Source: a virus
Virus record (IMG/VR): IMGVR_UViG_3300008012_000052
Coordinates: 1-41,748 of that record
Direction: 5' to 3' (one strand)
Length of the DNA stretch: 41,748 bases
Made by a program: the position numbers and the translations under genes. Of the stretch, positions 6,837 to 41,748 are shown in pieces; the stretch's first letter is position 1, and every line of letters starts with the position of its first letter. The notes under the pieces were generated by a model that saw nothing but the letters and a program-made list of their open reading frames with translations, was not told the DNA's origin and did no database searches.

Positions 6837-7217
6837 ATGAAATCTTTATACGAAGTGTTAAACATTGATTTAGCACAAGAATATACTAAAACTAGAAAAC
6901 TAGCAAAATTACAAACACTAGAAATCAGCGATGCTCAACTAGAAATTGAAGTTAAAAAAGCAATTGATAGCATGGATATTCCAGACGACGACGATCGTTA
7001 TCATTGGATTCAAAAACTAGGTCACGCAGCAGGTGCAGATTTGCTTACTATTGGTAAAGTACAACCTGAAAATATGCTTGCAATGGCAGCATTAAATGCT
7101 GATGATTTTCAAGAAGCAGTAAAAGTAGCTACAGGTACTGCACGTAATTGGAACAAACAAACTATTGAAGCTGAAAAGCAACTAGCAGAAGAATCTATGC
7201 CAACAACTATCTTGTAA
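6837..7217 (+). CDS. Conserved-looking hypothetical protein, 126 aa
   Basis: ATG follows TAGGAG at good spacing. The product is soluble, highly charged and predicted largely helical, with an acidic DIPDDDDR patch near the middle and no membrane segment. I recognise no domain. It lies 8 nt after the 59-aa gene, and its stop codon (TAATGA) overlaps the start of the glycosyltransferase gene, so it is translationally coupled to that enzyme. It may be an accessory of the glycosyltransferase pair or of the fibre; nothing in the sequence decides between them. Confidence 0.72.
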   Translation: MKSLYEVLNIDLAQEYTKTRKLAKLQTLEISDAQLEIEVKKAIDSMDIPDDDDRYHWIQKLGHAAGADLLTIGKVQPENMLAMAALNADDFQEAVKVATGTARNWNKQTIEAEKQLAEESMPTTIL

Positions 7218-13719: not shown

Positions 13720-13727
13720 TATTTATC
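13720..13727 (-). promoter_or_regulatory. Late promoter octamer for gp14-gp15-Nudix
   Basis: The minus strand reads GATAAATA followed by TACAT and then the gp14 ATG. It is one arm of a 21-bp perfect dyad (13720-13740) whose other arm is the gp13 promoter. Confidence 0.8.
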
Positions 13728-13732
13728 GTTAC

Positions 13733-13740
13733 GATAAATA
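13733..13740 (+). promoter_or_regulatory. Late promoter octamer for gp13
   Basis: GATAAATAC matches the T4-type late promoter and ends 15 nt before the gp13 ATG, leaving room for GGAG. It forms a perfect inverted repeat with the gp14 promoter across a 3-nt centre. Confidence 0.82.
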
Positions 13741-18960: not shown

Positions 18961-18968
18961 GATAAATA
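18961..18968 (+). promoter_or_regulatory. Late promoter octamer, 4 nt before the next ATG
   Basis: GATAAATACTATATG: the octamer starts 1 nt after the terminator T-run and stops 4 nt before the start codon, leaving no room for a ribosome binding site. Confidence 0.78.
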
Positions 18969-18972
18969 CTAT

Positions 18973-20280
18973 ATGGCAAGTAAACTTTATGATAATTTTA
19001 GTGGTAGAGGAAATCCTAAAGGTATTTTAGGAGACTTTCAACATGCTGCCGAGCTTTATAGAAAAAATAACTTTAGACTAAGTCCTAAAGTTAAATTTTT
19101 ATATCACGTTGTATTGAATATAAATCCAATTGCACTTGCATCGTTAGGATCGAGTATACAAAGTGCTTTAAGTACAAGAGAGATAAATCTACTTGCACAA
19201 ACCGTTGACTTGCCAACATATACAACTCAAATGGAAACAAAGAATCAATACAACAGAAAAAAACTTGTGCAAACAAAACTTAATTATGATCCTGTGTCTT
19301 TAATTTTCCATGATGATAATGCAGGATTAACTACACTACTCTGGGAAGCATATTACAGATATTATTTTCAAGATGGCAACTATTCTACTAGAACATCAAC
19401 AGGTAGACCAAATTCCTATCGTGTTGGACTATATGATCCTGAACCATTAAACTTGTATAGGCACGGTCTTGATAGATATAATTTTACAGAAGCACCGTTT
19501 TTTGATAGCATAGTTATACATCAACTACATCCGCAAAATGAAATATCAAAATTTACAAGTTATACACTTGTTAATCCATTAATTGAAAGTCATAGACATG
19601 ATACTTTAGATCAAACATCCGGAAGTGGATTAATGAAAAACACAATGTCTATTCAATATGAAACCGTGCTGTATAATAGAGGTACTACTACACAAGATAA
19701 TCCTGCAGGATTTGGAGATGATGCACATTATGATACAACACCAAGTCCATATGCTTATAGCTCGGCTAACGAAAGCGATGTAACACCTTTTGAAAATAAC
19801 AGCATAAGTTTAGAGGGTTGGGCAGGAATATTTTTTGATGCTGTGTTAAAAACAATTACACAATCTGATTTACAAAATCAACGTAGTGTAATTGACAAGC
19901 AAGCAATTACACCTCCTATAACAACTAATCAACCATTGAGTTTGTTTAATAATGTTATTGTTCCTAGACCAGATACAATAACAGGCACAACTCAAACATC
20001 TGCAACAAATACAAACTGGGCATCAGTACTTAATGGCATAGCAAAAGACAAAAACACTTTAACTAATCAGCAAAAATTAAATGATTTTAGTAGAGTAGCA
20101 TTTGGACTAGCAGACAACGATAGCGGTAGAAGTATATTTGAAAGTAAACTTGCATATGATAATCTTTCAGACGCTGCTACTTTACAAGTTCAAACAGCAG
20201 TTACTTTAAATGCAAACGAAATTGCAAACGGTAATGTACAAGGACTTAGAAACGATTTACAAAAACTAGGAATATTATAA
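18973..20280 (+). CDS. Virion structural protein, tail-tube-like (gp19-like)
   Basis: The product (435 aa from ATG 18973) contains KFLYHVVLNINP, LLAQTVDLPTYTTQMETKNQYNRKKLVQTKLNYDPVSLIFHDDNAG, LLWEAYYRYYFQDGNY and MSIQYETVLYN. The order of strands (substrate strand, VDLP.Y, NQYNRK, FHDDN, YEAVLYN) is that of tube-fold proteins such as gp19 and the baseplate tube cap and initiator (gp48, gp54). I therefore infer a tube-like or baseplate-hub component. It is not the portal gp20, whose motifs are absent. The upstream TTG at 18958 was rejected because it lies inside the promoter. The 3' part is Thr/Asn-rich and more variable. Confidence 0.75.
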   Translation: MASKLYDNFSGRGNPKGILGDFQHAAELYRKNNFRLSPKVKFLYHVVLNINPIALASLGSSIQSALSTREINLLAQTVDLPTYTTQMETKNQYNRKKLVQTKLNYDPVSLIFHDDNAGLTTLLWEAYYRYYFQDGNYSTRTSTGRPNSYRVGLYDPEPLNLYRHGLDRYNFTEAPFFDSIVIHQLHPQNEISKFTSYTLVNPLIESHRHDTLDQTSGSGLMKNTMSIQYETVLYNRGTTTQDNPAGFGDDAHYDTTPSPYAYSSANESDVTPFENNSISLEGWAGIFFDAVLKTITQSDLQNQRSVIDKQAITPPITTNQPLSLFNNVIVPRPDTITGTTQTSATNTNWASVLNGIAKDKNTLTNQQKLNDFSRVAFGLADNDSGRSIFESKLAYDNLSDAATLQVQTAVTLNANEIANGNVQGLRNDLQKLGIL

Positions 20281-24247: not shown

Positions 24248-24255
24248 GTTAAATA
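24248..24255 (+). promoter_or_regulatory. Late promoter variant for gp17
   Basis: GTTAAATAC starts 1 nt after the terminator T-run and ends 4 nt before the gp17 ATG. It departs from the octamer at two positions (GTTAAATA), so it may be weaker. Confidence 0.6.
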
Positions 24256-24259
24256 CAAC

Positions 24260-25840
24260 ATGAGTAAAAGTTTAGACGGTGTATTAACAAAAAAAGCAAA
24301 TCAGAAAGAAACATATACAGAAACACAAATTCAAGATCTATTGAATTGTATGGATCCTGATGAAGGTTACTTGTATTTTGCAAAACGATTTGCACACATT
24401 CAGCATCCAGTAAAAGGAAAACTTTTGTTTGATCCTTACGAATATCAGTTGAGGTTGATGCATTCGTATCATAATTTTAGATTTAATATTAATATGATGC
24501 CTAGACAAACAGGTAAAACTACATGTGCTAGTATATATTTGTGTTGGTATGCAATGTTCAATCCAGATCAAACTATTCTTATTGCAGCACACAAATACAC
24601 AGGTGCGCAGGAGATTATGCAGCGTATACGCTATGTATATGAACTATGTCCTGATTACATAAGAGCAGGTGTAACTAGTTATAATAAAGGTAGTATTGAG
24701 TTTGAAAATGGGTCACGTATTATCAGTCAAACAACAACAGGCACTACTGGACGTGGTTTGTCTATCTCGCTACTATATTGTGACGAGTTTGCGTTTGTGC
24801 AACCAAACATTGCTGAAGAATTTTGGACTTCAATTTCGCCTACACTAGCAACAGGTGGTAGAGCTATTATTACAAGCACACCAAACTCAGACGAAGATAC
24901 ATTTGCAGTTATATGGAAACAAGCTGAACAAAAGTTTGATGAGCATGGAAATGAACAAGAAATTGGTATAAATGGTTTTCACGCTTATAGAGCTCATTGG
25001 AGTGAACACCCCGACCGTGACGACGAATGGAAAGTTAATGAAATAGGTCGTATTGGTGAAGAAATGTTTCGTAGAGAATATGGCTGTGAATTTTTAATCT
25101 TTGATGAAACACTGATCAATAGTATAAAACTTGCTGCAATGGAAGGCATTGAACCTACATTGCATATGGGTCAAGTGCGATGGTACAAAAAACCTGATGC
25201 AAAAAAATCTTATGTTATAGGATTAGATCCTGCTATGGGAACAGGTGGAGATTTTGCTGCTATACAAGTGATAGAACTGCCTACATATGAACAAGTTGCT
25301 GAGTGGCAACATAACACTACAGCTATTCCAGGACAAATTAGGGTTTTGCGAGATATTTGTAGTTATATTGCAGAAGAAACAAAAACTACTTCTAATATTT
25401 ATTGGAGCGTTGAAAACAATGGTATAGGAGAAGCAGCACTACTTGTAATACAAGATTTTGGCGAAGAAAACATTCCTGGATTATTCATTAGTGAACCAAT
25501 ACGAAAAGGTCATGTAAGAAAATTTAGAAAAGGTTTTAATACTACACATGGAAGTAAAACTACAAGTTGTGCTAGATTAAAAACAATGATTGAAAATGAT
25601 AAACTAATATTAAAAAGTAAGCCTTGTATTAGTGAACTTAAAGCATACATAGCAGCAGGTAGTAGTTTTCAAGCAAAACCAGGACATCATGATGATTTAA
25701 TTAGCAGTTTAATTTTAACATTAAGAATAATGAGCGTTATGAAAGATTGGGATCCTACGGTTTATAATACGTTTAGCCAAATTGAAGCAGATGAAGAATA
25801 TGAAATGCCCATGCCTATCTTCGTAAGTAGCAGTTATTGA
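24260..25840 (+). CDS. 17: Large terminase subunit gp17
   Basis: This is the packaging ATPase-nuclease (526 aa; T4 gp17 is 610). Residues 81-88 PRQTGKTT are the Walker A, 171-176 LLYCDE the Walker B with catalytic Glu176, and 205-209 TSTPN the coupling motif. The RNase H-like nuclease has D323 (GLDPAMG), E385 (SVENNG) and D478/D479 (HHDDL). All catalytic residues are present, so a complete enzyme is expected. It drives DNA through the portal using ATP and cuts concatemers. ATG 24260 is chosen over TTG 24245, which lies in the terminator-promoter junction. There is no ribosome binding site, because the promoter octamer ends 4 nt upstream. Confidence 0.96.
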   Translation: MSKSLDGVLTKKANQKETYTETQIQDLLNCMDPDEGYLYFAKRFAHIQHPVKGKLLFDPYEYQLRLMHSYHNFRFNINMMPRQTGKTTCASIYLCWYAMFNPDQTILIAAHKYTGAQEIMQRIRYVYELCPDYIRAGVTSYNKGSIEFENGSRIISQTTTGTTGRGLSISLLYCDEFAFVQPNIAEEFWTSISPTLATGGRAIITSTPNSDEDTFAVIWKQAEQKFDEHGNEQEIGINGFHAYRAHWSEHPDRDDEWKVNEIGRIGEEMFRREYGCEFLIFDETLINSIKLAAMEGIEPTLHMGQVRWYKKPDAKKSYVIGLDPAMGTGGDFAAIQVIELPTYEQVAEWQHNTTAIPGQIRVLRDICSYIAEETKTTSNIYWSVENNGIGEAALLVIQDFGEENIPGLFISEPIRKGHVRKFRKGFNTTHGSKTTSCARLKTMIENDKLILKSKPCISELKAYIAAGSSFQAKPGHHDDLISSLILTLRIMSVMKDWDPTVYNTFSQIEADEEYEMPMPIFVSSSY

Positions 25841-30334: not shown

Positions 30335-30551
30335 AGAATTTGTTTCTGATCTATGGAACTTGTTTAAAGAATATTTGGATAAAAAGCATATTGAATTAGC
30401 AGCAGAAAGATATGTAGATACTCTTATTGATTACGGAGTTTCGGATATTCAGTTGCAAGAAATGTTAGGCGGTGATAAAACACTTGATGCTGCAATTCAA
30501 TATTACTTAGAGTTAGACGACGATAACGATGACGACGATTGGGATGAATAA
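30327..30551 (+). CDS. Small acidic hypothetical protein between uvsX and uvsY
   Basis: The product (74 aa) reads MNEEFVSDLWNLFKEYLDKKHIELAAERYVDTLIDYG and ends in a strongly acidic ELDDDNDDDDWDE tail. A short helical protein of this pattern follows UvsX in marine T4-like phages as I recall. The acidic tail could mimic DNA or contact gp32, UvsX or UvsY, but this is unproven. It overlaps uvsX (ATGAATGA) and uvsY (TAATG) and is therefore coupled to both. Confidence 0.8.
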   Translation: MNEEFVSDLWNLFKEYLDKKHIELAAERYVDTLIDYGVSDIQLQEMLGGDKTLDAAIQYYLELDDDNDDDDWDE

Positions 30552-31006
30552 TGGGTTGGTACAGCCAAGTAAGCAGAGATATATCACAAATTCCTTCTGC
30601 TATACAATACTTTGAAACTGAACTAGTTCAAGCAAAACAAGAATGTAAGTTACACGGTAATGTTGAAAAACAAGCATCAATGATGCCAGGTATTGTCGAG
30701 CATAGATTTAATCAGTTACAAGAAATTGAAGCCATATTAGAATTCTTAAACATTGAACTGCGTAAACTACGCAGTTCTTTTTTCAAAAAATATCTTGAAA
30801 ATTATCAAAGAGCATTATCAAGCCGAGATGTAGAAAAGTATGTTGATGGCGAACAAGATGTATGTGATTATGAAAAAATTATAAACGAATTTGCACTTAT
30901 GCGTAACAAATGGTTAGGTGTGTTAAAAGCACTAGATCAGAAACAATGGCAGATAACTAATATTGTAAAACTAAGAGTAGCAGGTATGGAAGATGCAAGT
31001 TTATAA
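30551..31006 (+). CDS. uvsY: UvsY recombination mediator
   Basis: The product (151 aa; T4 UvsY is 137) is mostly helical: SQVSRDISQIPSAIQYFETELVQAK, VEHRFNQLQEIEAILEFLNIELRKLRSSFFKKYLENYQRALSSRDVEKYV and MRNKWLGVLKALDQKQWQITNIVKLR. Its size and position two genes after uvsX fit UvsY, which loads UvsX onto gp32-covered ssDNA. The assignment rests on pattern and synteny. A TATAAATA late promoter overlaps its 3' end. Confidence 0.88.
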   Translation: MGWYSQVSRDISQIPSAIQYFETELVQAKQECKLHGNVEKQASMMPGIVEHRFNQLQEIEAILEFLNIELRKLRSSFFKKYLENYQRALSSRDVEKYVDGEQDVCDYEKIINEFALMRNKWLGVLKALDQKQWQITNIVKLRVAGMEDASL

Positions 31007-31031: not shown

Positions 31032-31973
31032 ATGGGAAAATATCGTGTTTCTGGGGTACTTAATCCAACAGAAAGTATTAAAGCAAGTAACATTACTAAA
31101 TGGCACAAAGGTGATAGAGTTGACTATTGGCCAAAAGATATGATGGCTGAAAATAATGTTAACGGAGTGTTAAATGAATTGTTTTCTGCATACGGACCTC
31201 CAAAACCTATTTTTAGACCACAAGATAAAGTTTTGACTATGGGAAGTTGCTTTGCATTACGCATTAGAGAATGGATGGAAAAGAACGGAAGAGGCACAGA
31301 AGCACTTTTTATTCCAGAAGGATTAAACAATAGTTTTGCAGTAAGACAATTTATAGAATGGGCATTAACAGGTAATCGTAGTCACGATGCTTATTGGTAT
31401 GATGAATTAGCAGACGGTGTAGGTAAATGGGAATCTCCTGAAGAGCAAGAACAAATAAAAAAACATTTTATCAATCACAACGGATTTGTTATTACTTTTG
31501 GTTTAGCAGAAGTTTGGAAAGACAAAGAAACCGGAGGCGTATTTTGGAGAGGTGTGCCTAATGATATGTTTGATCCCAACAAACACGAATCTGTTGTTAG
31601 TACCGTAGAAGAAAATATTGCAAATATAAAAACAATTGTTGAGTTGTTAAGAAAATACTGCGGCAATAAACCTATTATTATTACACTAAGTCCTGTACCA
31701 CTTAATGCTACATTTCAAGAAAGACCATGTGTAGTTAGTGATTGTGTAAGCAAAAGTATATTACGTGTTTCAATAGACGAAGCATTAAGAAACATTAATG
31801 ATAAAAATGTATATTACTGGCCTAGTTTTGAATATGTTAAATGGATTCCTAGCCATATGCCAATTGTAACATTTGGTGGCAAAAAAGGAAAGAAAATTAC
31901 TGATAGTAGACATGTAGCAGAGACTGCTGTATCAAACATTATTAGTAATTTTGCTAAAAAGTTTTTTATATAA
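31032..31973 (+). CDS. GSCFA-domain (SGNH-like) hydrolase
   Basis: The product (313 aa) contains VLTMGSCFALRIREW: GSCFA (71-75) is the signature of the family, whose Ser72 corresponds to the SGNH/GDSL nucleophile. FVITFGLAEVW (Asn replaced by Ala-Glu region), PIIITLSPVPL and DSRHVAE (D291, H294) supply the other blocks, including the catalytic Asp-His pair. GSCFA proteins are thought to act on cell-surface carbohydrates, for example as acyl transferases or esterases; substrates are unproven. It opens the glycan island under a late promoter, so a role in acylating or deacylating the glycan made by the following genes is plausible. Confidence 0.85.
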   Translation: MGKYRVSGVLNPTESIKASNITKWHKGDRVDYWPKDMMAENNVNGVLNELFSAYGPPKPIFRPQDKVLTMGSCFALRIREWMEKNGRGTEALFIPEGLNNSFAVRQFIEWALTGNRSHDAYWYDELADGVGKWESPEEQEQIKKHFINHNGFVITFGLAEVWKDKETGGVFWRGVPNDMFDPNKHESVVSTVEENIANIKTIVELLRKYCGNKPIIITLSPVPLNATFQERPCVVSDCVSKSILRVSIDEALRNINDKNVYYWPSFEYVKWIPSHMPIVTFGGKKGKKITDSRHVAETAVSNIISNFAKKFFI

Positions 31974-31983
31974 GGTGTAAGAA

Positions 31984-32646
31984 ATGGATACTGATCTCCT
32001 TTATGGTTGGCATGTATTACAAGGTGATAGTACTCTAGAGAGAGCTTTTAATAAATCTAAAATTTCAAATATTTTAGATTATCAAAAAGATCAATTAGAT
32101 ACAGCAATATCTTTTTGTAAAAACTTTAGACATACTATTGACATTGGAGCCAATTATGGACTAATGTCGGCTAATATGTCTAATATATTTAAAAAAGTTT
32201 CTGCATTTGAAATAGTTCCTGAAATTAATGCTTGCTTTAAAATGAATGCAAAAAAATTTAATTTACAAAATGTAGAAATATATGACTGCGGATTAGGCGA
32301 CAAAAAAGAAAAAGTTTCTATAAATTTTAATCCTAAAAGTACCTTTTCAACTCATATTAGTACAAATCAAGAAAATACTACCAAGGTAAAAATTTCTACA
32401 TTAGATTCATTTAATTTTACAAATGTAGATTTTATTAAAATTGATGCAGAAGGGTTTGAACCTTTTATTATCAAAGGTGGTTTAAAAACAATTTTAAAAT
32501 ATAAACCTGTAATTCTTTATGAAAGAAAAGGACATGAAAAAAGATATGGATTTCAAAAAAATTCAGTACTAGATATTTTATCTCGCCATGGATATACAGA
32601 GTTAGCTAATATAGGAAGCAAAAATGCTTTGATAGGTGTGAAATGA
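31984..32646 (+). CDS. FkbM-family methyltransferase (copy 1)
   Basis: The product (220 aa) has the SAM-binding motif TIDIGANYG (D53-G59), VSAFEIVPEINACF, LGDKKEKVSIN, then DFIKIDAEGFEPFIIKGG, the FkbM acidic loop. FkbM enzymes O-methylate sugars or small molecules. The gene is strikingly AT-rich compared with its structural neighbours. AAGGTG precedes the ATG. It overlaps the second FkbM gene by ATGA; the two are only distantly similar, so they likely act on different hydroxyls. Confidence 0.88.
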   Translation: MDTDLLYGWHVLQGDSTLERAFNKSKISNILDYQKDQLDTAISFCKNFRHTIDIGANYGLMSANMSNIFKKVSAFEIVPEINACFKMNAKKFNLQNVEIYDCGLGDKKEKVSINFNPKSTFSTHISTNQENTTKVKISTLDSFNFTNVDFIKIDAEGFEPFIIKGGLKTILKYKPVILYERKGHEKRYGFQKNSVLDILSRHGYTELANIGSKNALIGVK

Positions 32647-33263
32647 AAAAAGTATTTGAATACTGGATGCCAGATACAGATGAACACTTTGAAAGATTAA
32701 TTGCAAAAAGAGTTAAAAATGGTGGCCCGCCGCAGTATCAAGATGATGTAAGAGATGAAGCATACAAGTATGTAAGTGACTTTAACATTGCAGTTGACAT
32801 AGGTGCTAATGTTGGTCTGTGGTCTAAACCTCTTACAGAAAAGTTTAACCAAGTAATAGCTTACGAACCTCTTGAGCAAGTATATTCGTGCTTAGAAAGA
32901 AATGTAAGTGGACTGCCTGTACAAATTCATAAACACGCATTAGGCAGTGTTAATGATGTAGTTGAAATGGTATTTGACGAAGAAAACACAGGCGGCAGTT
33001 TTGTTAGTGAAGTTGGCACCGGTAGTATTCAAATTAAAAGATTAGATGATTTAAATTTACCAAAGTTTGGATTATTAAAAATTGATTGTGAAAGACATGA
33101 ATTAGAAGTGTTAAAAGGCGCAATGGATACTATCCTTAGATACAAACCAATTATAGTATGTGAACAGCAAGCTGACACAGATCAATGTGCAGGTATGTAT
33201 TTGAAATCTTTTGGCGCCAGAGAAATAACAAACGTAAGGAAAGACTATATCTTTGGATGGTAA
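32643..33263 (+). CDS. FkbM-family methyltransferase (copy 2)
   Basis: The product (206 aa) has AVDIGANVGLWS (52-58 motif), VIAYEPLEQVYSCLERNV, ALGSVNDVVEM and LLKIDCERHELEVLKGA, where the usual IDAEG loop reads IDCER. It is a SAM-dependent O-methyltransferase of the same family as the preceding gene. The N-terminal extension EYWMPDTDEHFERLIAKRV has no counterpart in copy 1. The end overlaps the epimerase start by 11 nt. Confidence 0.87.
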   Translation: MKKVFEYWMPDTDEHFERLIAKRVKNGGPPQYQDDVRDEAYKYVSDFNIAVDIGANVGLWSKPLTEKFNQVIAYEPLEQVYSCLERNVSGLPVQIHKHALGSVNDVVEMVFDEENTGGSFVSEVGTGSIQIKRLDDLNLPKFGLLKIDCERHELEVLKGAMDTILRYKPIIVCEQQADTDQCAGMYLKSFGAREITNVRKDYIFGW

Positions 33264-34122
33264 AATTTTATTAACTGGTTCACACGGATTTATTGGCAGT
33301 CATTACTACAAACATTTACAAAAACAAAATGCATATGTAGTACCTTACGATAAAAAAATCCGCGGTGAAGATTTATCAGATAAAAATACTACACAATTAT
33401 TACCTGACTATGATATTGTAGTACACCTTGCTGCAACTAATGGCACTAAATTATTTTATGAACAGCCAACTGATGTACTAATAAATAATACACTACCAAC
33501 AATAAATTTAATTGAACGTTATAAAAATACCAATACTAAATTTGTTTTTGCTAGTACTTGTGAAATATTTAATGGAGCAATTGATGCAGGTTATTACCAT
33601 GTGCCAACTGATGAGCAAGTACCGGTTGTGTTTAACGACATTACGAATCCAAGATGGAGTTATAGCATTCCGAAAGCTCTAGGTGAAAACCTAGTAGCAA
33701 ACAGCGGATTAGATTATTTAATTATTAGATATTTTAATGTTTATGGTCCAGGACAAGTAGATCATTTCGTCAACGAATTTGTAGAACGCTGTAAACGTGG
33801 CGAGTATTATATTAAAGGCGATGATACTAGAAGTTTTTGTTATATAGATGATGCAGTGCAAATGACTGACATTCTTATCAAAAAATCTTGTAGTAACATA
33901 GTGCATGTTGGAAATGACAACGAAGTAAAGATAAGCGTAGTAGCAAAACTTATTATGGGCTTTATGGGTATAAATCCTGACAAGTTACAAATACTACCAG
34001 GTCCAGAAGGCAGTGCAAAACGTAGATGTCCTGATACAACACTAGTACAAATGCTAACAGGATTTACTAATTATACTCCTTTAGACGTTGGACTTAAAAA
34101 AACAATAGAAAGTTTATTATGA
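33253..34122 (+). CDS. NAD-dependent sugar epimerase/dehydratase (extended SDR)
   Basis: The product (289 aa) starts KILLTGSHGFIGSH, the Rossmann GxxGxxG (G9, G12, G15). HLAATNG, FASTCEIF and the catalytic Y137SIPK141 follow, then YFNVYGPGQ and DDTRSFCYIDDAVQ, typical of nucleotide-sugar epimerases and dehydratases. The NDP-sugar is not determinable. No in-frame ATG lies near the N-terminus; TTG 33253, with AAGGA 11 nt upstream, puts the Rossmann strand at the very start, as expected. It partners the dehydrogenase-like gene that follows (ATGA overlap). Confidence 0.88.
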   Translation: MDGKILLTGSHGFIGSHYYKHLQKQNAYVVPYDKKIRGEDLSDKNTTQLLPDYDIVVHLAATNGTKLFYEQPTDVLINNTLPTINLIERYKNTNTKFVFASTCEIFNGAIDAGYYHVPTDEQVPVVFNDITNPRWSYSIPKALGENLVANSGLDYLIIRYFNVYGPGQVDHFVNEFVERCKRGEYYIKGDDTRSFCYIDDAVQMTDILIKKSCSNIVHVGNDNEVKISVVAKLIMGFMGINPDKLQILPGPEGSAKRRCPDTTLVQMLTGFTNYTPLDVGLKKTIESLL

Positions 34123-34862
34123 TTATAGGTGTAGTAGGTATAGGTGTTGTTGGAAAAGCAAATGTTAACGGCTTTAAAAGGTTAGGACACACCGTACTTG
34201 AGCACGATGTCAAATATAATACAGCTTTAAGAGATGTGTTGACTGCAGAAATTATTTTTATTTGCACTCCTGAAGACCAAGTTAATAATGTTGTAAAAGA
34301 TATTAGCCTGTATGATTATAAAGGAGTAGTAGCAATTCGAAGCACAACTACTCCGGGTACTACAGATGAACTAATAAAAAAACATAACATAGATATTTGT
34401 TTTGTACCTGAATTTCTTAGACAAAATTATGCTGACAAAGATTTTGAACAATGTGATTTATTAGCTATTGGTACAAATAATTTAAAAATAGGACGTAAAG
34501 TAAGAAACGCTTTTGGTAAGTTACCTAAAAATGTAGATTATATGATGCCAGCAGAAGCAGAAATATTGAAATTATATAATAACTCTTATGCAGCACTTAG
34601 AGTTGTGTTTGCTAATATTATGTACGATATTGCCAACAAATATGATGCAGATTATAGTGTTATAAAAAATGCGTATAAAAAAACAAATAAAACAAGTGGA
34701 AATTATTTAGATGTAAATAAAAATTTACGTGGTTATAGCGGTGCCTGTTTACCTAAAGACACTTTAGCTCTTTCTAAATTAATTAATGATCTTAAATTAG
34801 ATTACACACTTGTACAATCGATTCATAACGATAATTTAAAATTACCAAAAAATAAAACTTAG
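34119..34862 (+). CDS. Short UDP-glucose/GDP-mannose dehydrogenase-like protein
   Basis: The product (247 aa) has the NAD-binding GVVGIGVVG, the middle-domain FVPEFLRQNYADKDF and KLYNNSYAALRVVFANI (K151, N155), and the catalytic Cys loop GYSGACLPKDTLAL (C210, K213). It stops soon after this loop. Typical enzymes (about 390-450 aa) go on with a third, nucleotide-sugar-binding domain, which is missing here and is not present in another frame: only 23 nt separate it from the next gene. It may be a minimal oxidoreductase using a different substrate, or an inactive remnant. The intact catalytic residues argue that it is functional. Confidence 0.85.
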   Translation: MIIGVVGIGVVGKANVNGFKRLGHTVLEHDVKYNTALRDVLTAEIIFICTPEDQVNNVVKDISLYDYKGVVAIRSTTTPGTTDELIKKHNIDICFVPEFLRQNYADKDFEQCDLLAIGTNNLKIGRKVRNAFGKLPKNVDYMMPAEAEILKLYNNSYAALRVVFANIMYDIANKYDADYSVIKNAYKKTNKTSGNYLDVNKNLRGYSGACLPKDTLALSKLINDLKLDYTLVQSIHNDNLKLPKNKT

Positions 34863-34873
34863 TAAAGTACGCA

Positions 34874-34881
34874 TATAAATA
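34874..34881 (+). promoter_or_regulatory. Late promoter (TATAAATA) inside the glycan island
   Basis: An exact TATAAATA followed by CTAC and then ATG of the nucleotidyltransferase-cupin gene; no ribosome binding site fits in the 4-nt gap. Confidence 0.78.
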
Positions 34882-34885
34882 CTAC

Positions 34886-35653
34886 ATGAAAGTAGTACTA
34901 GTTACAGGTGGATTTGATCCTCTACATTCCGGGCACATTGCCTATTTTAAAGCAGCACGAGAACTTGGAGATCACTTAGTAGTTGGTCTTAATTCTGATG
35001 CTTGGCTTACACGCAAAAAGGGTCGTCCGTTTATGTCAATTGATGAACGGGCTGCCATTGTTAAAGAACTAGAATGTGTAGATGAAGTTATAGCATTTGA
35101 CGATAACGACAACACAGCATGTCTTGCTATAGGGCAAGTTTTATCTACAAAGGCAAGTAGTTGGAAACTTATCTTTGCTAATGGCGGTGATAGAACAAAT
35201 AAAACAACACCAGAATTTGAAACTTGGGGCAATCATCCTGATGTTGAATTTGCCTGGGGTGTTGGCGGTAAAGATAAGAAAAACTCAAGCAGTTGGATAC
35301 TCAAAGATTGGAGTCAACCTACAACAGAACGTGCTTGGGGCAAATACACTATATTAGATAAAGGTGAAGGTTGGCAAGTTAAACAACTTGAGTTTGCAGC
35401 AGGTAAAGCACTTAGTGATCAAAGACACTTTAAACGCAGCGAACACTGGCACGTTGTTAATGGCGTTATCAATATGTTCCTTGAAGATAAAATAGGAAGA
35501 AGAACTAGCACACTATTAACGCCAGGTGATAGTATTGACATTCCAATAGGCTATTGGCATAAGGCTGTAAATTTAGATAACAAAGCAGCAAAAGTTATAG
35601 AAGTCTGGATGGGTAAAGAATTAAGTGAAGAAGATATAGAAAGAAGAGATTAA
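34886..35653 (+). CDS. Cytidylyltransferase-mannose phosphate isomerase cupin fusion
   Basis: The product (255 aa) has two parts. Residues 1-140 are a HIGH-type nucleotidyltransferase: VTGGFDPLHSGHIAYF (HSGH 14-17) and FANGGDR (100-103), like RfaE/HldE and glycerol-phosphate cytidylyltransferases. Residues ~148-255 are a cupin of the mannose-6-phosphate isomerase type II kind: ERAWGKYTILDKGEGWQVKQLEF, RHFKRSEHWHVVNGV, IPIGYWHKAVN, with metal-ligand His residues at 181, 187, 189 and 225. The fusion could isomerise a sugar phosphate and activate it with CMP or a similar nucleotide. The substrate is unknown. It is downstream of the short dehydrogenase and overlaps the next gene (TAATG). Confidence 0.86.
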   Translation: MKVVLVTGGFDPLHSGHIAYFKAARELGDHLVVGLNSDAWLTRKKGRPFMSIDERAAIVKELECVDEVIAFDDNDNTACLAIGQVLSTKASSWKLIFANGGDRTNKTTPEFETWGNHPDVEFAWGVGGKDKKNSSSWILKDWSQPTTERAWGKYTILDKGEGWQVKQLEFAAGKALSDQRHFKRSEHWHVVNGVINMFLEDKIGRRTSTLLTPGDSIDIPIGYWHKAVNLDNKAAKVIEVWMGKELSEEDIERRD

Positions 35654-37332
35654 TGAAAGTATTTGTAGGATGGGATAGCAGAGAAGATATTGCTTATCAA
35701 GTTTGTAAAAGTAGTATTGAAGAAACAAGTAGTGTACCTGTAGAAATTATTCCATTGAAACAAAAGTCACTGAGAGGTGACGGTGTATACACTCGTGAAA
35801 TAGATCAACTCGCAAGCACAGAATTTACATTTACAAGATTTTTAATTCCGCATTTGTGTAACTATGAAGGTTGGGCATTGTTTATTGACTGCGATTTTGT
35901 TTTTCTAGAAGATATTAAACTGCTTTGGGATCAACGTGACGAAAGCAAAGCTGTAATGTGTGCTCATCATGATTATACACCTAAACCTGGGTCAACTAAA
36001 ATGGATGGACAAGTACAACACGCTTATCCAAGAAAAAATTGGTCGAGTATGATGCTAATAAATTGTGGTCATCCTGGTAATGCTAAATTAACTTTAGATG
36101 TAGTAAATGACATGGCAAGAACTGGTGCATACTTTCATAGATTTAGCTGGTTAAAAGACGAAGAAGTAGGTGAGCTTAGTCATGAATGGAATTGGCTAGT
36201 AGGTTGGTATGAAGAACCGGTTGATGGAAAGCCAAAAGCACTACATTACACAGAAGGCGGACCTTGGTTTGATGATTATGCTACCTGTGAATATAATATA
36301 GAATGGTATAGAGCTCATATTCAATATGCTAAAAAAATGGAGCAAAGTTATCAATATAAGTTATATAGGGAACGTAACAAAGAAATAAATGTCGACGATT
36401 TATCCTATACGGAGTCAAAAAAAAAATTAATTAAGCAATTTTTAAATAACTTAATTGATCCTAACCAAGTTTATTTTAAAAATGAAACAATAGAGAATGA
36501 TGATGATATGGGAATAAAAACTGCTGCAATTGCTGTGCAAAAAGAAGAATTTAATTTAGAAAAAAAGGGATTAGAATACGATCCTTATCTGAAAGCATTT
36601 ATAAATGGCAGCGGCGGTTTTATTAGCGACTTTGATAGAGAACAATATACAGATAACACTCTTGTTATTAGAGGCTTAGGCGGCGGTGGACAAAAAGCAA
36701 TAAAATATTGTTTAGAAAATAAAAGAGATTTCTACGCAATTGATACTGGTTATATCCAACCAGGAACAAAAAAAGAATACCATCGTATTACAAAAAATAG
36801 TTTACAAGCATTAAATTTTAAACCTATGGCAAGCGATCGTTTAGCAAAATTAAATTGGAAACCTGGCAAACCAAAAACTGGAAGTAAAATTTTAGTTGTT
36901 CCTCCGAGCGAAAAAGTTATGAAATTTTACGATCAAGATCTTGATGCTTGGATGAAATTAACAATTGAAAACATCAAAAAACATACTGATCGTCCTATTG
37001 AAGTTAGATTAAAACCAGGAAGATCAGAAAGAGTTACAAAAAACACAATTTGGGATGCTATGGCTAATGATGTGTATTGCCTAGTAACATTTAATAGTAT
37101 TGCTGCATCAGAAGCATTCTTATTTGGATTGCCTGCTATTGCACTAGCACCAAATGCTGCTAGTGCATTTTGCAATACTAGTATTGCAGACATTGAAAAC
37201 AATTTACGTATACCTCATAGATCAACACAAGTAGAACTTGCAAATTTTTTAAGTTATAATCAATTTACACAAGCAGAAATGAAAGACGGAACAGCATGGA
37301 GAATTCTCACAGAAAATTATGAAAGTAGTTAG
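35653..37332 (+). CDS. Two-domain glycosyltransferase (GT8-like plus KpsC/S-like)
   Basis: The product (559 aa) has an N-terminal GT-A domain: MKVFVGWDSREDIAYQVCKSSI and LFIDCDFVFLED (D79-C-D81, the metal DxD), SSMMLINCG and HYTEGGPWFDDY, the pattern of GT8-type or alpha-sugar transferases. Residues ~330-559 (TLVIRGLGGGGQKAIKYC, ILVVPPSEKVMKFY, RPIEVRLKPGRSERV, FNSIAASEAFLFGLPAIA) resemble capsule polysaccharide modification transferases of the KpsC/KpsS kind (GT-B-like). The same second domain recurs as separate proteins in two nearby genes. One enzyme could therefore make two successive linkages. The stop overlaps the next start by 14 nt. Confidence 0.82.
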   Translation: MKVFVGWDSREDIAYQVCKSSIEETSSVPVEIIPLKQKSLRGDGVYTREIDQLASTEFTFTRFLIPHLCNYEGWALFIDCDFVFLEDIKLLWDQRDESKAVMCAHHDYTPKPGSTKMDGQVQHAYPRKNWSSMMLINCGHPGNAKLTLDVVNDMARTGAYFHRFSWLKDEEVGELSHEWNWLVGWYEEPVDGKPKALHYTEGGPWFDDYATCEYNIEWYRAHIQYAKKMEQSYQYKLYRERNKEINVDDLSYTESKKKLIKQFLNNLIDPNQVYFKNETIENDDDMGIKTAAIAVQKEEFNLEKKGLEYDPYLKAFINGSGGFISDFDREQYTDNTLVIRGLGGGGQKAIKYCLENKRDFYAIDTGYIQPGTKKEYHRITKNSLQALNFKPMASDRLAKLNWKPGKPKTGSKILVVPPSEKVMKFYDQDLDAWMKLTIENIKKHTDRPIEVRLKPGRSERVTKNTIWDAMANDVYCLVTFNSIAASEAFLFGLPAIALAPNAASAFCNTSIADIENNLRIPHRSTQVELANFLSYNQFTQAEMKDGTAWRILTENYESS

Positions 37333-38248
37333 TTATCTAAGTGTTGTTCCTACTAAAAACAGCAATCAACAAAAAACAGAATTACTAAGAAGGTATGTAG
37401 AAGGCGTTCAAAAAAATGGTGACACTGGTATACTACACACAGGCTATCAACTTATCCCTGCAGATGTAGCAGTAATTCAAGGATGGGTGTATGAAAATAA
37501 AGCACCTGTACATTTAAAGTTACGTAATGATGTTATAGAATATCAAAAATTGCGAGACAGGTATACGTGTGCTGCTGATGCAAATTTATTAAATTATGCA
37601 AACAAACAAAATCCATTAGGATATCTACGGTATAGTTTTAATGGAGTTTTCCCTCATACTGGAATATATTGTGATAATAACATAGATGTTCAACGATGGA
37701 ATAAAATTTCTGCAAATTATAAGATAAAGATAGAACCAACAAAAAGAAAAGGTAAATGGATTATACTTATGCTCCAACGAAACGGAGGTTGGAGTATGCA
37801 AGGAGAAGATGTACAAGATTGGGCATTAAAAACTATAAAAAGAATACGCAAATACACAGATAGACCTATTCTAATAAGAGCACATCCTGGCGACCAAAAA
37901 GCACAGCATTATCTAAATGAAAGACGCACTAGACTAAAAAATTTACCAGGAGTAAAAATATCTCCAATTGGCAGAAGTTTAGAAGAAGATTTAACTAAAT
38001 GTTGGGCAGTTGTAAATCATAATAGTAGTGCAGTAGTTGGTCCTATGATACAAGGCTATCATACATTTATTACAGATGCAGGAGCAAGTCAATGTAGAGA
38101 CGCTGCAAATACCGAATTGCAGTATATCGAGAATCCTTTAGAATTTGATAGAGAAAAATGGGCTCAACGAATAAGTATGTTTACTTGGAACTTTGCAGAA
38201 TTATCATCTGGTGAATGCTGGTCACATATGAAAAATTATTGCCAATAA
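37319..38248 (+). CDS. KpsC/S-like glycosyltransferase (copy 2)
   Basis: The product (309 aa) contains WIILMLQRNGGWSMQG, TDRPILIRAHPGDQKAQH, CWAVVNHNSSAVVGPMIQGYHTFITDAG and ENPLEFDREKWAQRISMFTWNF. The RP(I)..R.HPG, N(H)NSS and QG.H/.GVP..... pattern matches domain 2 of the previous gene and the 39099 gene, as in capsule glycosyltransferases that lack a DxD. It is coupled to the preceding gene by a 14-nt overlap. It is convergent with the minus-strand GT that follows, overlapping it by 13 nt. Confidence 0.76.
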   Translation: MKVVSYLSVVPTKNSNQQKTELLRRYVEGVQKNGDTGILHTGYQLIPADVAVIQGWVYENKAPVHLKLRNDVIEYQKLRDRYTCAADANLLNYANKQNPLGYLRYSFNGVFPHTGIYCDNNIDVQRWNKISANYKIKIEPTKRKGKWIILMLQRNGGWSMQGEDVQDWALKTIKRIRKYTDRPILIRAHPGDQKAQHYLNERRTRLKNLPGVKISPIGRSLEEDLTKCWAVVNHNSSAVVGPMIQGYHTFITDAGASQCRDAANTELQYIENPLEFDREKWAQRISMFTWNFAELSSGECWSHMKNYCQ

Positions 38249-39060
38249 GATTCATTGCGTTGCACAATTAAATCTTTAGGTTTGTTACTTTTACCTACTT
38301 CTTTTCTGTCACCTTTTAGGTGATCAAAATATTTTCCTAAATCGCTATTAATCATAGGATGTCCTTCACCGTTAATCAAGTTACCACTTATATTGTAATA
38401 CTTGCTTTGAGGACTTTTACTTTGTATTGTTTTTCTAACTTCTTCAAATACATAACTATCGTGCCATTCTTCCATTTTGAAAATTCCGTTTTCTGCATCT
38501 TCGTAAACACGTTCAAATTCTTTTAAAAAGTTTTGCCCAATTTTAGTTTTCAAATTAATACCGTAGAAGCCGCACTCTGGCCATTTCTTACCTCTACCCA
38601 AATAGCTCATCCATGCTTGTTCTGGACAAAATCTTGCAATGTCGTTGTATGTTGCAGGTGAATGTACATATGTATCTGCATCTAACCAAATTAACCAATC
38701 TGTATTACAACGTTGTGCAGCATCAAACACAGCATACACTTTGTTAGCAAAACGTATGGCATGCCATTTAAATTCTTTATGCCAGTCTCTTGGTCTACGT
38801 GCTTTTATCTCAGGTGGACATTTACCATTTGCTTTTGGTACATTTTTCCATCGTTCCTTAAACGCAACAAGTTTTGGAAGTTCTGCTTTTTGATCTAAAA
38901 TTATAATACGACTATCATTTGTTTGCGGTACGCAATCTTCTGCATATAAGTACAATGTAAATTGTTTATCAATGTTTTTACTAAAACTATCGATAAATCG
39001 TTGCCCGTACAAGTCAAGTACAGGTTTATGAAAAGTTGAAACAAATGAAATAGTTTGCAC
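38236..39060 (-). CDS. GT-A type glycosyltransferase on the minus strand
   Basis: The product (274 aa) has ISFVSTFHKPVLDLYGQRFIDSFSKN, an acceptor-side RWHKEFKWHAIRFANKVYAVFDAA-type helix (actual order RDWHKEFKWHAIRFANK) and the metal site DWLIWLDADTYVH (DAD 127-129), followed by CGFYGINL and EEWHDSYVFEEV. It is a nucleotide-sugar GT-A enzyme; donor and acceptor are unknown. The start is GTG 39060 with AAGGA at 8-nt spacing. It is the only island gene on this strand and shares a palindromic promoter region with the plus-strand GT at 39099. Confidence 0.84.
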   Translation of the reverse strand: MQTISFVSTFHKPVLDLYGQRFIDSFSKNIDKQFTLYLYAEDCVPQTNDSRIIILDQKAELPKLVAFKERWKNVPKANGKCPPEIKARRPRDWHKEFKWHAIRFANKVYAVFDAAQRCNTDWLIWLDADTYVHSPATYNDIARFCPEQAWMSYLGRGKKWPECGFYGINLKTKIGQNFLKEFERVYEDAENGIFKMEEWHDSYVFEEVRKTIQSKSPQSKYYNISGNLINGEGHPMINSDLGKYFDHLKGDRKEVGKSNKPKDLIVQRNESYWQ

Positions 39061-39072
39061 AATAAAGTCCTT

Positions 39073-39080
39073 GTTAAATA
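39073..39080 (+). promoter_or_regulatory. Late promoter variant for the 39099 gene
   Basis: GTTAAATA lies 18 nt before the ATG and next to a palindrome, AATACT-GG-AGTATT (39080-39093), whose GGAG also serves as ribosome binding site. Confidence 0.6.
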
Positions 39081-39089
39081 ATACTGGAG

Positions 39090-39097
39090 TATTTACA
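39090..39097 (-). promoter_or_regulatory. Late promoter variant for the minus-strand GT
   Basis: The minus strand reads TGTAAATAC, facing away from the plus-strand GTTAAATA. It lies 29 nt before the GTG start, with the shared palindrome between the two octamers. Confidence 0.55.
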
Positions 39098-39098
39098 A

Positions 39099-39944
39099 AT
39101 GAGATTTAGTTTATTTCCGCAATTTGGTGCAATGAACAGCAAACCTGTCTTTGAAGCATTTGAACACAGCTTACGCAAAGCTGGCCATATGGTAGAATAC
39201 GATAGTATGCACGCCGATGTAGCTGTTATATGGAGCGTGTTATTTCACGGCAGAATGGCTGCAAATAAACCTATTTGGGATTACTATACAAAGACAGGTA
39301 AAAAAGTTATTGTATTAGAAGTTGGCGGAATCAAAAGAGGAACAACATGGAAGGTAGGACTTAATGGTATTAATCGTGATGGTTATTTTGGCAATACTGG
39401 TGCCAGCGGTGATCGTGCTACTGCGCTCGAAATAAATCTTAAACAATGGAAAGACGAAGGCGAGTATATATTAATATGCGGCCAACATGATAAAAGTCTA
39501 CAATGGCAGAATATGCCACGTATGAGTCATTGGATAATGAATATAATAGATGAAGTACAAAGGTATTGTGATAAACCAATTGTTTTTAGACCACATCCAA
39601 GATGTAGATTAGATCACATTGAAAGACAATACAAAAATGTTTATAGAGACGATCCTATAAAACTTGATAATACATACGACGACTATAATTTAAGTTTTAA
39701 AGATTGTCATGCTGTAATAAGTTGGAGTAGTAATCCAGGACCGCAAGCTATATTAGCAGGTGTTCCAGTTTTTTGTGGTCCAAGTAGTTTAGCATATGAT
39801 GTAGGTAACAAAGATATTAGTACAATAAAATATCCATTAAAACCAAATAGAAAACAATGGCTTAACGATTACGCTTGGACTGAATTTACTATAGAAGAAA
39901 TAGCCAACGGTATCCCTTTGAAAAGATTGACTTCTCGCTTATAA
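39099..39944 (+). CDS. KpsC/S-like glycosyltransferase (copy 3)
   Basis: The product (281 aa) contains MRFSLFPQFGAMNSKPVFEAFEHSLRKAGH, VAVIWSVLFHGRMAAN, KKVIVLEVGGIKRGTTWKVG, YILICGQHDKSLQW, KPIVFRPHPRCR and ISWSSNPGPQAILAGVPVFCGPSSLAYDVGN. It is the clearest member of the capsule-type transferase trio: an HPR/HPG loop and a GVPVFCGP sugar-nucleotide region. It lacks a GT-A domain. Sequence similarity to copy 2 is only at motif level, so substrates may differ. It ends the island; a sigma70-like promoter for the next gene lies inside its 3' end. Confidence 0.78.
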   Translation: MRFSLFPQFGAMNSKPVFEAFEHSLRKAGHMVEYDSMHADVAVIWSVLFHGRMAANKPIWDYYTKTGKKVIVLEVGGIKRGTTWKVGLNGINRDGYFGNTGASGDRATALEINLKQWKDEGEYILICGQHDKSLQWQNMPRMSHWIMNIIDEVQRYCDKPIVFRPHPRCRLDHIERQYKNVYRDDPIKLDNTYDDYNLSFKDCHAVISWSSNPGPQAILAGVPVFCGPSSLAYDVGNKDISTIKYPLKPNRKQWLNDYAWTEFTIEEIANGIPLKRLTSRL

Positions 39945-39961: not shown

Positions 39962-41146
39962 ATGGAATTTATAGAAGATTATCTACAACATATTTGTGAA
40001 AAAAAGCTAGATAGCTTTAACAGGGTTGATTCAATTTACTTTAGTATTTACAAACAAGTTACTAAAGGAATTGGATTGACAGATAGGCAATACAATCTTA
40101 TACACAAAAAAATAAGTGAATATTTTGACATTAGCGTAGATGTACAAACAAAAATACCTATGCGCAAAATTGATAGAAGCAAGTATATAAAGTTAGTTGA
40201 TACATCAGATGTCTATGGACACGATAATGTTTATGAAAGTTACAAATCTAAATGGACATGGATTAAAGTACGGTTTCCTTTTAGTAAAAAAGATATTTGT
40301 AAAATTGAAAAATTAAAATATGATGTTGGCATAAGTGAATACTATCATAGTAAAGGTTCTCACGAACACTATTTTAAATTGTCTTACATTAATGCATTTC
40401 ATGTTTGTAAATATTTTAAAAATACAGAATTTGATATTGCAGATGATATTTTATTATATGCAGATGAAACAAAAAAAGTATTAGAAAACAGAGACAATCA
40501 TGTTCCTATGCTTAGTGGAAATACAATAATTAATGTACATGATAACATTACTAATCTAACAAAAAATTTAACTTACATACAAAAAGTTGATCAACATATA
40601 AGATACGGTTATGAAATACAAAGAATTAAACCACGCTATCTTATAGAAAAAATTGCATATAGAAATAATCGTATTGTTCCTGTTGATCCAAATGAAAACA
40701 GCCTGTATGATATTGCAAAAGCAATAAATACTTTGCAAAGATTTCCTTTGCTTGTATTAATTGATACTGATTTACCAAATTCTAGTATGTATGAACAAAT
40801 AGTAGAATGGCACACTGCTTTTTCTAATTTTGTTGAAGTTAAACAACAAAGTGTTTTGTTTAGAGTAGAAACAAAAGATATTGAAAATAATTCATTAAAT
40901 GATTTTGTAAAAGATAAACAACTAAACAATTGGGTTGACGAAAACACAAAAGTAGTGTATATTAAAAAGAACAAATTACCTAAATTACTAATCGATAGTT
41001 TTAAACCAATTTGTGCTGTTAGTAAAACTGCTACAAGATGGGGTGGTAATTTAGGTGCGTATGTAGATCATAATTGTGATTGTGTTATTGTACATGAAAC
41101 AATCGATTATGGATTTTACAAAGGAAGATTTAGTGACAACCTGTAA
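39962..41146 (+). CDS. Hypothetical protein preceding uvsW, 394 aa
   Basis: I do not recognise this protein. It begins MEFIEDYLQHICEKKLDSFNRVDSIYFSIYKQVTKG and is rich in Lys, Asp and aromatic residues, with no signal peptide or membrane segment. The C-terminal half (DLPNSSMYEQIVEWHTAFSNFV, VVYIKKNKLPKLLIDSFKPICAVS, WGGNLGAYVDHNCDCVIVHETIDYG) has alternating strands and helices like a Rossmann-type or helicase C-terminal fold, but lacks clear motifs. It has a host-type promoter, no ribosome binding site, and overlaps the start of uvsW. It may be a replication or recombination accessory; this is inferred only from position. Confidence 0.78.
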   Translation: MEFIEDYLQHICEKKLDSFNRVDSIYFSIYKQVTKGIGLTDRQYNLIHKKISEYFDISVDVQTKIPMRKIDRSKYIKLVDTSDVYGHDNVYESYKSKWTWIKVRFPFSKKDICKIEKLKYDVGISEYYHSKGSHEHYFKLSYINAFHVCKYFKNTEFDIADDILLYADETKKVLENRDNHVPMLSGNTIINVHDNITNLTKNLTYIQKVDQHIRYGYEIQRIKPRYLIEKIAYRNNRIVPVDPNENSLYDIAKAINTLQRFPLLVLIDTDLPNSSMYEQIVEWHTAFSNFVEVKQQSVLFRVETKDIENNSLNDFVKDKQLNNWVDENTKVVYIKKNKLPKLLIDSFKPICAVSKTATRWGGNLGAYVDHNCDCVIVHETIDYGFYKGRFSDNL

Positions 41147-41748
41147 ACTTATTATCGAGGATGAAGTAAACATCAAACTAGAAGGATTAGATGTAGATGT
41201 ACGGAGAAAGTTATCAAATGCTCTCAAGTTCGATGTGCCATACGCACGATATATGCCGCAGTATAAACTTGGACGTTGGGACGGCAAAGTTGCTTTTTTT
41301 GGTATTGGGGGTACAGGCTATGTTAATCATCTTGACGTCATTGTGGATGTACTTGAAAAAAACAGAGTAAGCATTGTAGACATTGAAGACAATCGTCATC
41401 CTATTCAACTTGACTTTCCACAAGTAACTGAACGCTATTGGGCAGATCAAGGTGTATGTTGGCCTAAAGGACATCCGGCCGAAGGCGAAGAAATCATTCT
41501 GCGTGACTATCAAGTAGAAGCAATCAATAACTTTGCAAACAATCCACAGAGTCTACAACAGATTGCTACAGGTGCAGGCAAGACTATTACTACTGCTACA
41601 CTATCACATATGAGTGAAAAGTATGGACGCAGTTTGGTTATTGTCCCCAATAAGTCGCTAGTTGAGCAAACTGAAGAAGACTATATTAACTGCGGCTTAG
41701 ATGTAGGTGTATACTTTGGTGATAGAAAGATGTTAAACAAAACACATA
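41133..41748 (+). CDS. uvsW: UvsW RNA/DNA helicase (3' partial)
   Basis: The visible 205 residues run off the window end. The N-terminal domain (CKLIIEDEVNIKLEGLDVDVRRKLSNALKFDVPYARYMPQYKLGRWDGKVAFF) matches the T4 UvsW pattern FRYGNWDG. The superfamily 2 helicase core follows: motif Q-like LRDYQVEAI, motif I QIATGAGKT and motif Ia VIVPNKSLVEQ. UvsW unwinds R-loops and branched DNA and shifts T4 from origin- to recombination-dependent replication. I chose GTG 41133 because AAGGAAG lies 5 nt upstream and the N-terminus then aligns with T4; ATG 41109 is the alternative. The start overlaps the 394-aa gene by 14 nt. Confidence 0.9.
   Translation, partial: MTTCKLIIEDEVNIKLEGLDVDVRRKLSNALKFDVPYARYMPQYKLGRWDGKVAFFGIGGTGYVNHLDVIVDVLEKNRVSIVDIEDNRHPIQLDFPQVTERYWADQGVCWPKGHPAEGEEIILRDYQVEAINNFANNPQSLQQIATGAGKTITTATLSHMSEKYGRSLVIVPNKSLVEQTEEDYINCGLDVGVYFGDRKMLNKTH

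Follow-up and report, generated by a model that had tools for sequence, protein, structure and literature searches.

The virus record IMGVR_UViG_3300008012_000052 of IMG/VR, analyzed here in full (41,748 bases, hereafter the window), comes from a T4-like myovirus, is probably a genome fragment, and carries an island of ten open reading frames (ORFs) for glycan enzymes at positions 31032-39944. The island is bounded by uvsY on the left and by a 394-residue gene and then uvsW on the right. By comparison with its relatives, it is a fixed genomic locus between uvsY and uvsW made of two parts, a constant core (genes 6-10) and a hypervariable left arm (genes 1-5). The core has a conserved late-type promoter, and the island as a whole is best explained as building a short decorated glycan in the cytosol late in infection, with virion proteins as the most likely acceptors, an explanation to which we give about an even chance of being correct.

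The evidence for a two-part locus comes from about 240 related contigs in public data, for which gene 6, gene 1, uvsY, and gene 7 served as queries; they contain 39 distinct complete uvsY-uvsW intervals of 6.6-17.2 kb. This comparison had been proposed as a check in an earlier interpretation of the window made without database searches (the sequence-only reading), and it finds genes 7-10 in 39 of 39 distinct intervals and gene 6 in 37. Moreover, uvsY or uvsW stands beside all 76 newly fetched gene-7 loci, and the contigs that bear the locus reach 358 kb. The DNA from uvsY to gene 6 varies from 12 to 9,550 bases across intervals. Arm families match profiles of glycan-tailoring enzymes; across the intervals they include methyltransferases and transferases (FkbM, TylF-type and other methyltransferases, sulfotransferases, and GT25) together with GDP-mannose dehydratase, DegT aminotransferase, CTP_transf_3-RraA, and polysaccharide pyruvyltransferase. 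Correlation with uvsX distance is 0.28-0.38 for the core genes and 0.365 for uvsY, against 0.17 for arm content, and 42 of 72 close pairs have no arm family in common. On these measures the core descends together with the rest of the phage backbone, whereas the arm is swapped between close relatives. The Sinorhizobium phage Phosso provides an empty-site comparison: it is syntenic with the window (uvsX, uvsY, and uvsW are 66, 53, and 56% identical, respectively), and its uvsY-uvsW interval holds three other genes and no recognisable glycosyltransferase (GT).

Further observations concern the locus in its relatives. The gene 9 family has switched direction at the same position, with 27 of 49 members on the minus strand and 22 on the plus strand. 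A second phage type (L023, L030-L034, L174-L176, and L195), with gp15-, gp17-, and gp18-like genes at 24-35% identity, has a nucleotidyltransferase (NTase)-cupin gene without the remaining core. Two contigs labelled as a Neomarinimicrobiota metagenome-assembled genome (L177 and L178) hold the full uvsX-island-uvsW region of the clade and are probably binning errors.

All ten consecutive glycan ORFs named by the sequence-only reading lie where it placed them and have profile, homology, or fold support; nine are on the plus strand and one, gene 9, is on the minus strand. Its count of four GT genes also stands, amended by the presence of two GT domains in gene 7. The first core gene, gene 6 (34886-35653, plus), joins an HxGH NTase (PF01467, CTP_transf_like, E=6e-15) and a PMI-type cupin (PF01050, MannoseP_isomer, E=2e-20) in a single protein. 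Gene 7 (35653-37332, plus; PHROG 28018), which is one or two genes depending on the relative, consists of a GT8-like GT-A domain at residues 1-225 (7N; Pfam Glyco_transf_8, E=1e-3 (0.0011), under the family cut-off) and a KpsC-like GT-B domain (7C). Genes 8 (37319-38248, plus) and 10 (39099-39944, plus) are KpsC/WbbB-like GT-B genes with no Pfam match, and the GT-A-like gene 9 (38236-39060, minus) has a weak Glycos_transf_2 match only (0.008). When genes 9, 10, and 11 were compared as sequence profiles with solved structures, nothing significant emerged. For an AlphaFold2 model of gene 10 based on 28 relatives (pLDDT 91.5), the top 20 Foldseek matches are all Kdo transferases, with KpsC, WbbB, and KrkA first (best E=3e-7, probability 1.00). 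Gene 10 shares the fold and the HPR motif with these enzymes and differs from them in sequence (11-17% identity, TM about 0.5) and in being smaller than most. Since profile searches show gene 8 (E=9e-21) and the C-terminal half of gene 7 to be homologous to gene 10, the core carries five GT domains, including 7N and gene 9.

The sequence-only reading had named inactive remnants as a possible refutation. The catalytic motifs of the island genes are unchanged in 25-28 relatives, and the locus is thus genuine and conserved rather than decayed. HSGH and NSSSWIL of gene 6 are invariant in 27 sequences, as is the gene 9 DAD motif (D127 A128 D129) across the relatives examined. In gene 8, the region in the place of the candidate catalytic Asp, QRNGGWS, has no Asp.

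The arm of this phage opens with a GSCFA-family protein, gene 1 (31032-31973; Pfam GSCFA, 2.1e-29), found in 2 of 39 distinct intervals. Two FkbM methyltransferases follow, genes 2 (31984-32646; Pfam, 4.4e-14) and 3 (32643-33263; 6.8e-11), both over the TIGR01444 cut-off; gene 3 is a frequent arm gene that, by synteny, commonly stands immediately 5' of gene 6. Gene 4 (33253-34122), a short-chain dehydrogenase/reductase (SDR)-type nucleotide-sugar epimerase/dehydratase (Pfam Epimerase, 5.1e-33), is present in 5 of 39 intervals. Gene 5 (34119-34862) is a short UDP-sugar dehydrogenase-like protein in which Pfam detects the N-terminal and central UDPG_MGDP_dh domains only (PF03721, 4e-8; PF00984, 2.7e-15) and leaves the C-terminal domain unmatched. 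All five arm genes are on the plus strand. The description of the island as a near-complete sugar-building set was too strong, as there is no sugar kinase, the UDP-glucose dehydrogenase-like protein lacks the C-terminal domain, and gene 6 corresponds to a gene that stands by itself in marine bacteria.

The boundary genes are both on the plus strand. uvsY (30551-31006) precedes the island in relatives, where it is mostly 77-91% identical, and its Phosso homologue belongs to PHROG 231 (UvsY). uvsW (41112-41747; ResIII, 1.3e-11; UvsW_N, 9e-4) is incomplete at the window end and its start codon is uncertain. On the right flank, gene 11 (39962-41146, plus), with no Pfam family, was considered as a glycan gene and set aside; it weakly matches a gene upstream of uvsW in the island-less Phosso and is probably outside the glycan pathway. 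Its Foldseek search matched helicases and other proteins, none significantly, and a direct hhalign comparison with Phosso gene 419 was negative. Searches against named phages gave no match for the GSCFA protein, for gene 11, or for the island DNA compared as DNA.

Full-length relatives of gene 6, at 40-61% identity, are common among marine bacterial genome records. In dozens of SAR11 genomes the counterpart stands alone between polA and a major facilitator superfamily (MFS) gene, and in SAR86 it precedes a gyrA-like gene (polA, MFS, and phosphoenolpyruvate carboxykinase neighbours were called by Pfam and gyrA by reading of the sequence). Gene 6 need not be a polysaccharide gene, because this bacterial counterpart stands alone outside polysaccharide clusters. 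Ethanolamine-phosphate and glycerol-3-phosphate cytidylyltransferases are among its closest solved relatives. In the SAR86 loci L179 and L180, SDR and polytopic genes are found close to gene 6. The near-clonal relatives L003, L004, and L086 are about 99% or more identical to the window outside a tract in gene 6 (34912-35284, plus), which contains 82 of the 83 nucleotide differences in the gene and leaves the cupin almost unchanged. The tract has 47 synonymous and 20 non-synonymous codon changes and looks like a natural exchange of the NTase domain by recombination.

The virion genes of the phage show what the late motif of the clade looks like: GATAAATA has 10 copies in the window, nearly all just 5' of ORF starts, and none of 100 shuffles reaches 10. 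Exact TATAAATA occurs twice (31002 and 34874), each time directly 5' of a plus-strand ORF. Enrichment of TATAAATA was rejected, as two copies against about 7.5 by chance is a depletion; because the motif is rarer than chance, position and conservation rather than frequency carry the argument. The second copy, P6 (34874-34881, plus), has its first base 12 nucleotides 5' of the gene 6 ATG. Among relatives, NNTAARTA begins exactly 12 or 13 nucleotides before this ATG in 73 of 87 distinct upstream regions (shuffled mean 0.55, maximum 2). By comparison, in 60-104 sequences for each gene, the 25 nucleotides before uvsX and uvsY contain the motif at most once and those before genes 7 and 8 never do. 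Of 48 distinct regions upstream of gene 10, 31 carry a second conserved element, mostly GTTAAATA; in the window it belongs to a divergent late-type pair (39073-39097), with GTTAAATA at 39073-39080 on the plus strand for gene 10 and TGTAAATA at 39097-39090 on the minus strand for gene 9. These conserved late-type elements strongly support late control of the core.

The arm presents a different picture. The sequence-only reading took the entire island as late, which is supported for the core with its conserved P6 promoter and does not extend to the arm. The TATAAATA copy that could serve as a late promoter for the arm of this phage (31002-31009, plus) overlaps the uvsY stop codon, and the motif is absent from L088, whose arm also opens with GSCFA. 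Only 11 of 93 arm-first loci have the motif before the arm start, and any NNTAAATA is found in 22 of 109 distinct post-uvsY regions, in some of which it is the gene 6 promoter itself. A late promoter at the arm start is thus not conserved across relatives. In 64 of 93 arm-first relatives, the start of the first arm gene falls within uvsY or directly at its end, so that the arm is probably co-transcribed with uvsY in most relatives. The 31002 site may be functional in the window; a late arm is not a general property of the locus.

Two side observations concern these motifs. The first motif base lies 12 nucleotides before the ATG at 18961-18975, 24248-24262, and 34874-34888, and spacing is mostly 12-13 nucleotides across relatives for gene 6, gp17, and the 25854 gene. 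T4 late transcription starts about 13 nucleotides after the first motif base, and late mRNAs of such genes may be leaderless, with the message beginning at the start codon. Back-to-back late motifs on opposite strands also separate divergent genes at 13720-13740 (gp13 and the 12560 gene), as they do at 39073-39097 (genes 9 and 10).

A hydropathy scan of 421 ORFs from the 39 intervals, with a threshold of three or more membrane segments, detected no polytopic membrane protein; a flippase, a polymerase, and an exporter with several spans are therefore not apparent in the locus. On controls, the scan assigned 11 segments to a SAR11 MFS transporter and 8-9 to proteins of SAR86 loci that hold gene 6 and SDR genes, and it counted four or more in 116 of 810 ORFs taken from bacterial loci. 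The island is not of the Wzx/Wzy or ABC-exported capsule/O-antigen locus type, given 0 of 421 polytopic ORFs. Because no polytopic protein is encoded, the acceptor must be reachable from the cytosol, as are virion proteins, the inner-leaflet core of lipopolysaccharide (LPS), and DNA.

Several steps can be proposed for cytosolic glycan assembly. Gene 6 would make a nucleotide-activated sugar or polyol. The GT-A domains (7N and gene 9) and the KpsC/WbbB-like GT-B domains (7C and genes 8 and 10) would then build a short constant oligosaccharide, the GT-B donor probably being host CMP-Kdo or a similar CMP-sugar. Arm enzymes would attach strain-specific residues and methyl groups, and those of other strains would attach sulfate, amino, or pyruvyl groups. 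As all enzymes appear soluble and the core late, the most likely acceptor would be a virion protein, whose synthesis shares both their compartment and their timing. Strain-specific glycans on virions could alter adsorption or protect particles. Virion decoration, one of the two late roles suggested by the sequence-only reading, agrees with the lack of membrane machinery, which falls short of proof. Early expression would not disprove it, since the capsid GTs of chloroviruses are expressed early (PMC5408694).

A number of points weigh against virion decoration. The glycan, its acceptor, and the enzyme activities are all predicted, and we infer late transcription of the core from the motif alone. 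The pathway as a whole may not be late, given an arm read with uvsY. The candidate catalytic Asp of gene 10, D131, is Asp in 23, Glu in 4, and Asn in 1 of 28 sequences. Soluble enzymes working at the inner leaflet also build the LPS core, and missing exporters are therefore compatible with host LPS as the acceptor. Finally, the authors who described comparable gene sets in pelagimyophages interpret them as modifying the host O-chain (PMC7029224).

The main alternative, less likely though quite possible, is remodelling of the host surface: the LPS core of the host, or a lipid-linked unit, would be the substrate that the soluble enzymes lengthen or decorate on the inner leaflet, and host machinery would export the product. 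Late in infection, this would keep released progeny from sticking to debris or prevent superinfection. KpsC, WbbB, and KrkA, which the gene 10 fold matches, act on lipid-linked or LPS glycans, and an arm read with uvsY could be expressed before the late phase. Such remodelling is also the interpretation given to pelagimyophage and cyanophage clusters in two reports (PMC7029224, PMC7824862). However, a late core promoter allows little time for turnover of the surface, the island encodes no ligase, flippase, or polymerase, and the related cassette of a Caulobacter phage adjoins tail fibres. A soluble product rather than a polymer-bound glycan, in the form of a small glycoconjugate or metabolite (a CDP-alcohol derivative, for example) that stays in the cell or is released, would agree with the single gene 6 counterparts of SAR11 (after polA) and SAR86 outside polysaccharide clusters and with the cytidylyltransferases among its solved relatives. 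A constant set of five GT domains makes a small metabolite unlikely, and gene 6 does occur near SDR and polytopic genes in L179 and L180; this soluble product is improbable overall.

Glycosylation of modified phage bases as a defence against restriction is very improbable, although phage GTs are known to be used in this way (PMC12619734) and the island is set among DNA-metabolism genes. No gene of the thymidylate synthase/hydroxymethylase family (PF00303) was found in 6 of 7 large relatives, which are possibly incomplete, and the window is itself a fragment; the missing family weakens the DNA option. Furthermore, the GT folds are of the surface-glycan type, and the known substrates of FkbM proteins and sulfotransferases are small molecules or glycans. 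It is barely credible that the island is stuffer or selfish cargo that sits at a recombination hotspot and plays no defined part in infection. The hypervariable arm might suggest this, and Sullivan et al. use the term “stuffer DNA” for cyanophage LPS clusters (PMC3037559). On the other hand, the core persists in 37-39 of 39 intervals and its active sites do not vary, and the codon changes in the recombined domain of gene 6 are mostly synonymous (47 versus 20).

Virion decoration thus remains the preferred explanation, and a more specific form of it can be put forward tentatively: serotype-like virion glycans in a phage clade, with a constant late core oligosaccharide on the particle and decoration from a cassette that can be exchanged, both encoded at a single fixed locus. 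Under this proposal, which is less likely than not, closely related large marine T4-like phages would carry different coat sugars, in the manner of chloroviruses. Whether phage glycan clusters act on the host surface, on the particle, or on nothing is a long-standing question since the early cyanophage genomes; the functionality of the cyanophage LPS clusters is not known (PMC3037559). The question is testable here, with a core near-universal in a clade of hundreds of public contigs and homologues in the cultivated phage Mosig. Were the virion the target, diversification of a sugar coat could be a general strategy of marine phages.

Outside the island, the sequence-only reading pointed to a sulfotransferase at 21090, which matches PHROG 3347 (E=4e-8), and to a GT pair at 7217-10431. 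The first member of this pair is borne out by an Anp1 match (E=2e-8); the second, of 877 residues, has only a Glycos_transf_2 match at E=0.044. This 877-residue protein (7798-10431) is encoded 3' of the tail fibre and has several repeats of about 95 residues that resemble one another (NHVWLNG..YDG); its weak GT2 match is confined to the last third. The ORF at 18973-20280 matches tail-tube PHROGs (4e-15) and is longer than gp19, so that this phage apparently encodes a pair of tube-like proteins.

Among known systems, the nearest cultivated cassette is that of the Pelagibacter phage Mosig EXVC030M, isolated on SAR11 (HTCC1062), which has a contiguous glycan cassette at about 124832-130666 of MT647606. 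It shares with the island homologues of gene 9 (E=2e-33) and 7N (49% identity), two GT-Bs of the gene 8/10 type, and two FkbM proteins, and it also has a sulfotransferase. Unlike the island, the Mosig cassette follows ribonucleotide reductase and RuvC; no NTase-cupin was found in it, and a motif scan found no late-type motif just 5' of its genes. Marine T4-like pelagimyophages also have GT8-type GTs, an rfaE-like NTase, and UDP-glucose dehydrogenase; their GTs adjoin tail fibres or occur in dispersed groups of two or three, and the available part of the account describes no constant core (PMC7029224).

Large LPS gene clusters occur in the cyanophages P-SSM2, S-SM2, and S-SSM7 (PMC3037559), and capsular systems are found in jumbo phages (PMC7824862). 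Like the island, the cyanophage clusters combine epimerases, HIGH nucleotidyltransferases, cupins, and several GTs in a large T4-like phage (PMC3037559, PMC7824862). They differ in position, lying near hli03 or phoH with tRNAs (PMC3037559). A tblastn search with genes 7-10 gave no match in P-SSM2 or S-SSM7, and S-SSM7 has an unfused NTase relative beside gp43. A cyanophage relative of 7N has annotated KdsA and KdsB nearby (CTP_transf_3 and DAHP-synthase domains), which fits a donor of the CMP-Kdo type. Gene 7 had no match in the three bacterial genomes searched (one each from SAR11, SAR86, and a gammaproteobacterium), an uninformative result.

The Caulobacter Bertelyvirus cassette (CcrSC gp169-174) brings together 7N, a GT-B of the 7C/8/10 type, and FkbM genes directly 3' of tail-fibre genes, between tail genes and lysozyme. 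Its host virus is a jumbo phage that is not T4-like, and the cassette is without the NTase-cupin. FkbM genes of the Sinorhizobium phage phiM12 and the Ochrobactrum phage OC are isolated, outside any GT cassette.

The best functional analogy is the chlorovirus PBCV-1, whose capsid bears a glycan with a conserved core made by cytoplasmic, mostly soluble virus enzymes (PMC7826918, PMC5408694). The island resembles this system at the gene level in its soluble enzymes, constant core, and variable decoration, a resemblance in design rather than homology. The chlorovirus infects eukaryotes, its GT genes are scattered and early, and its glycans are proven. The general kind of system represented by the island, the marine-phage glycan cluster, is known; what is new is the architecture, which combines a fixed locus, a late-type core promoter, an exchangeable arm, and freedom from membrane machinery.

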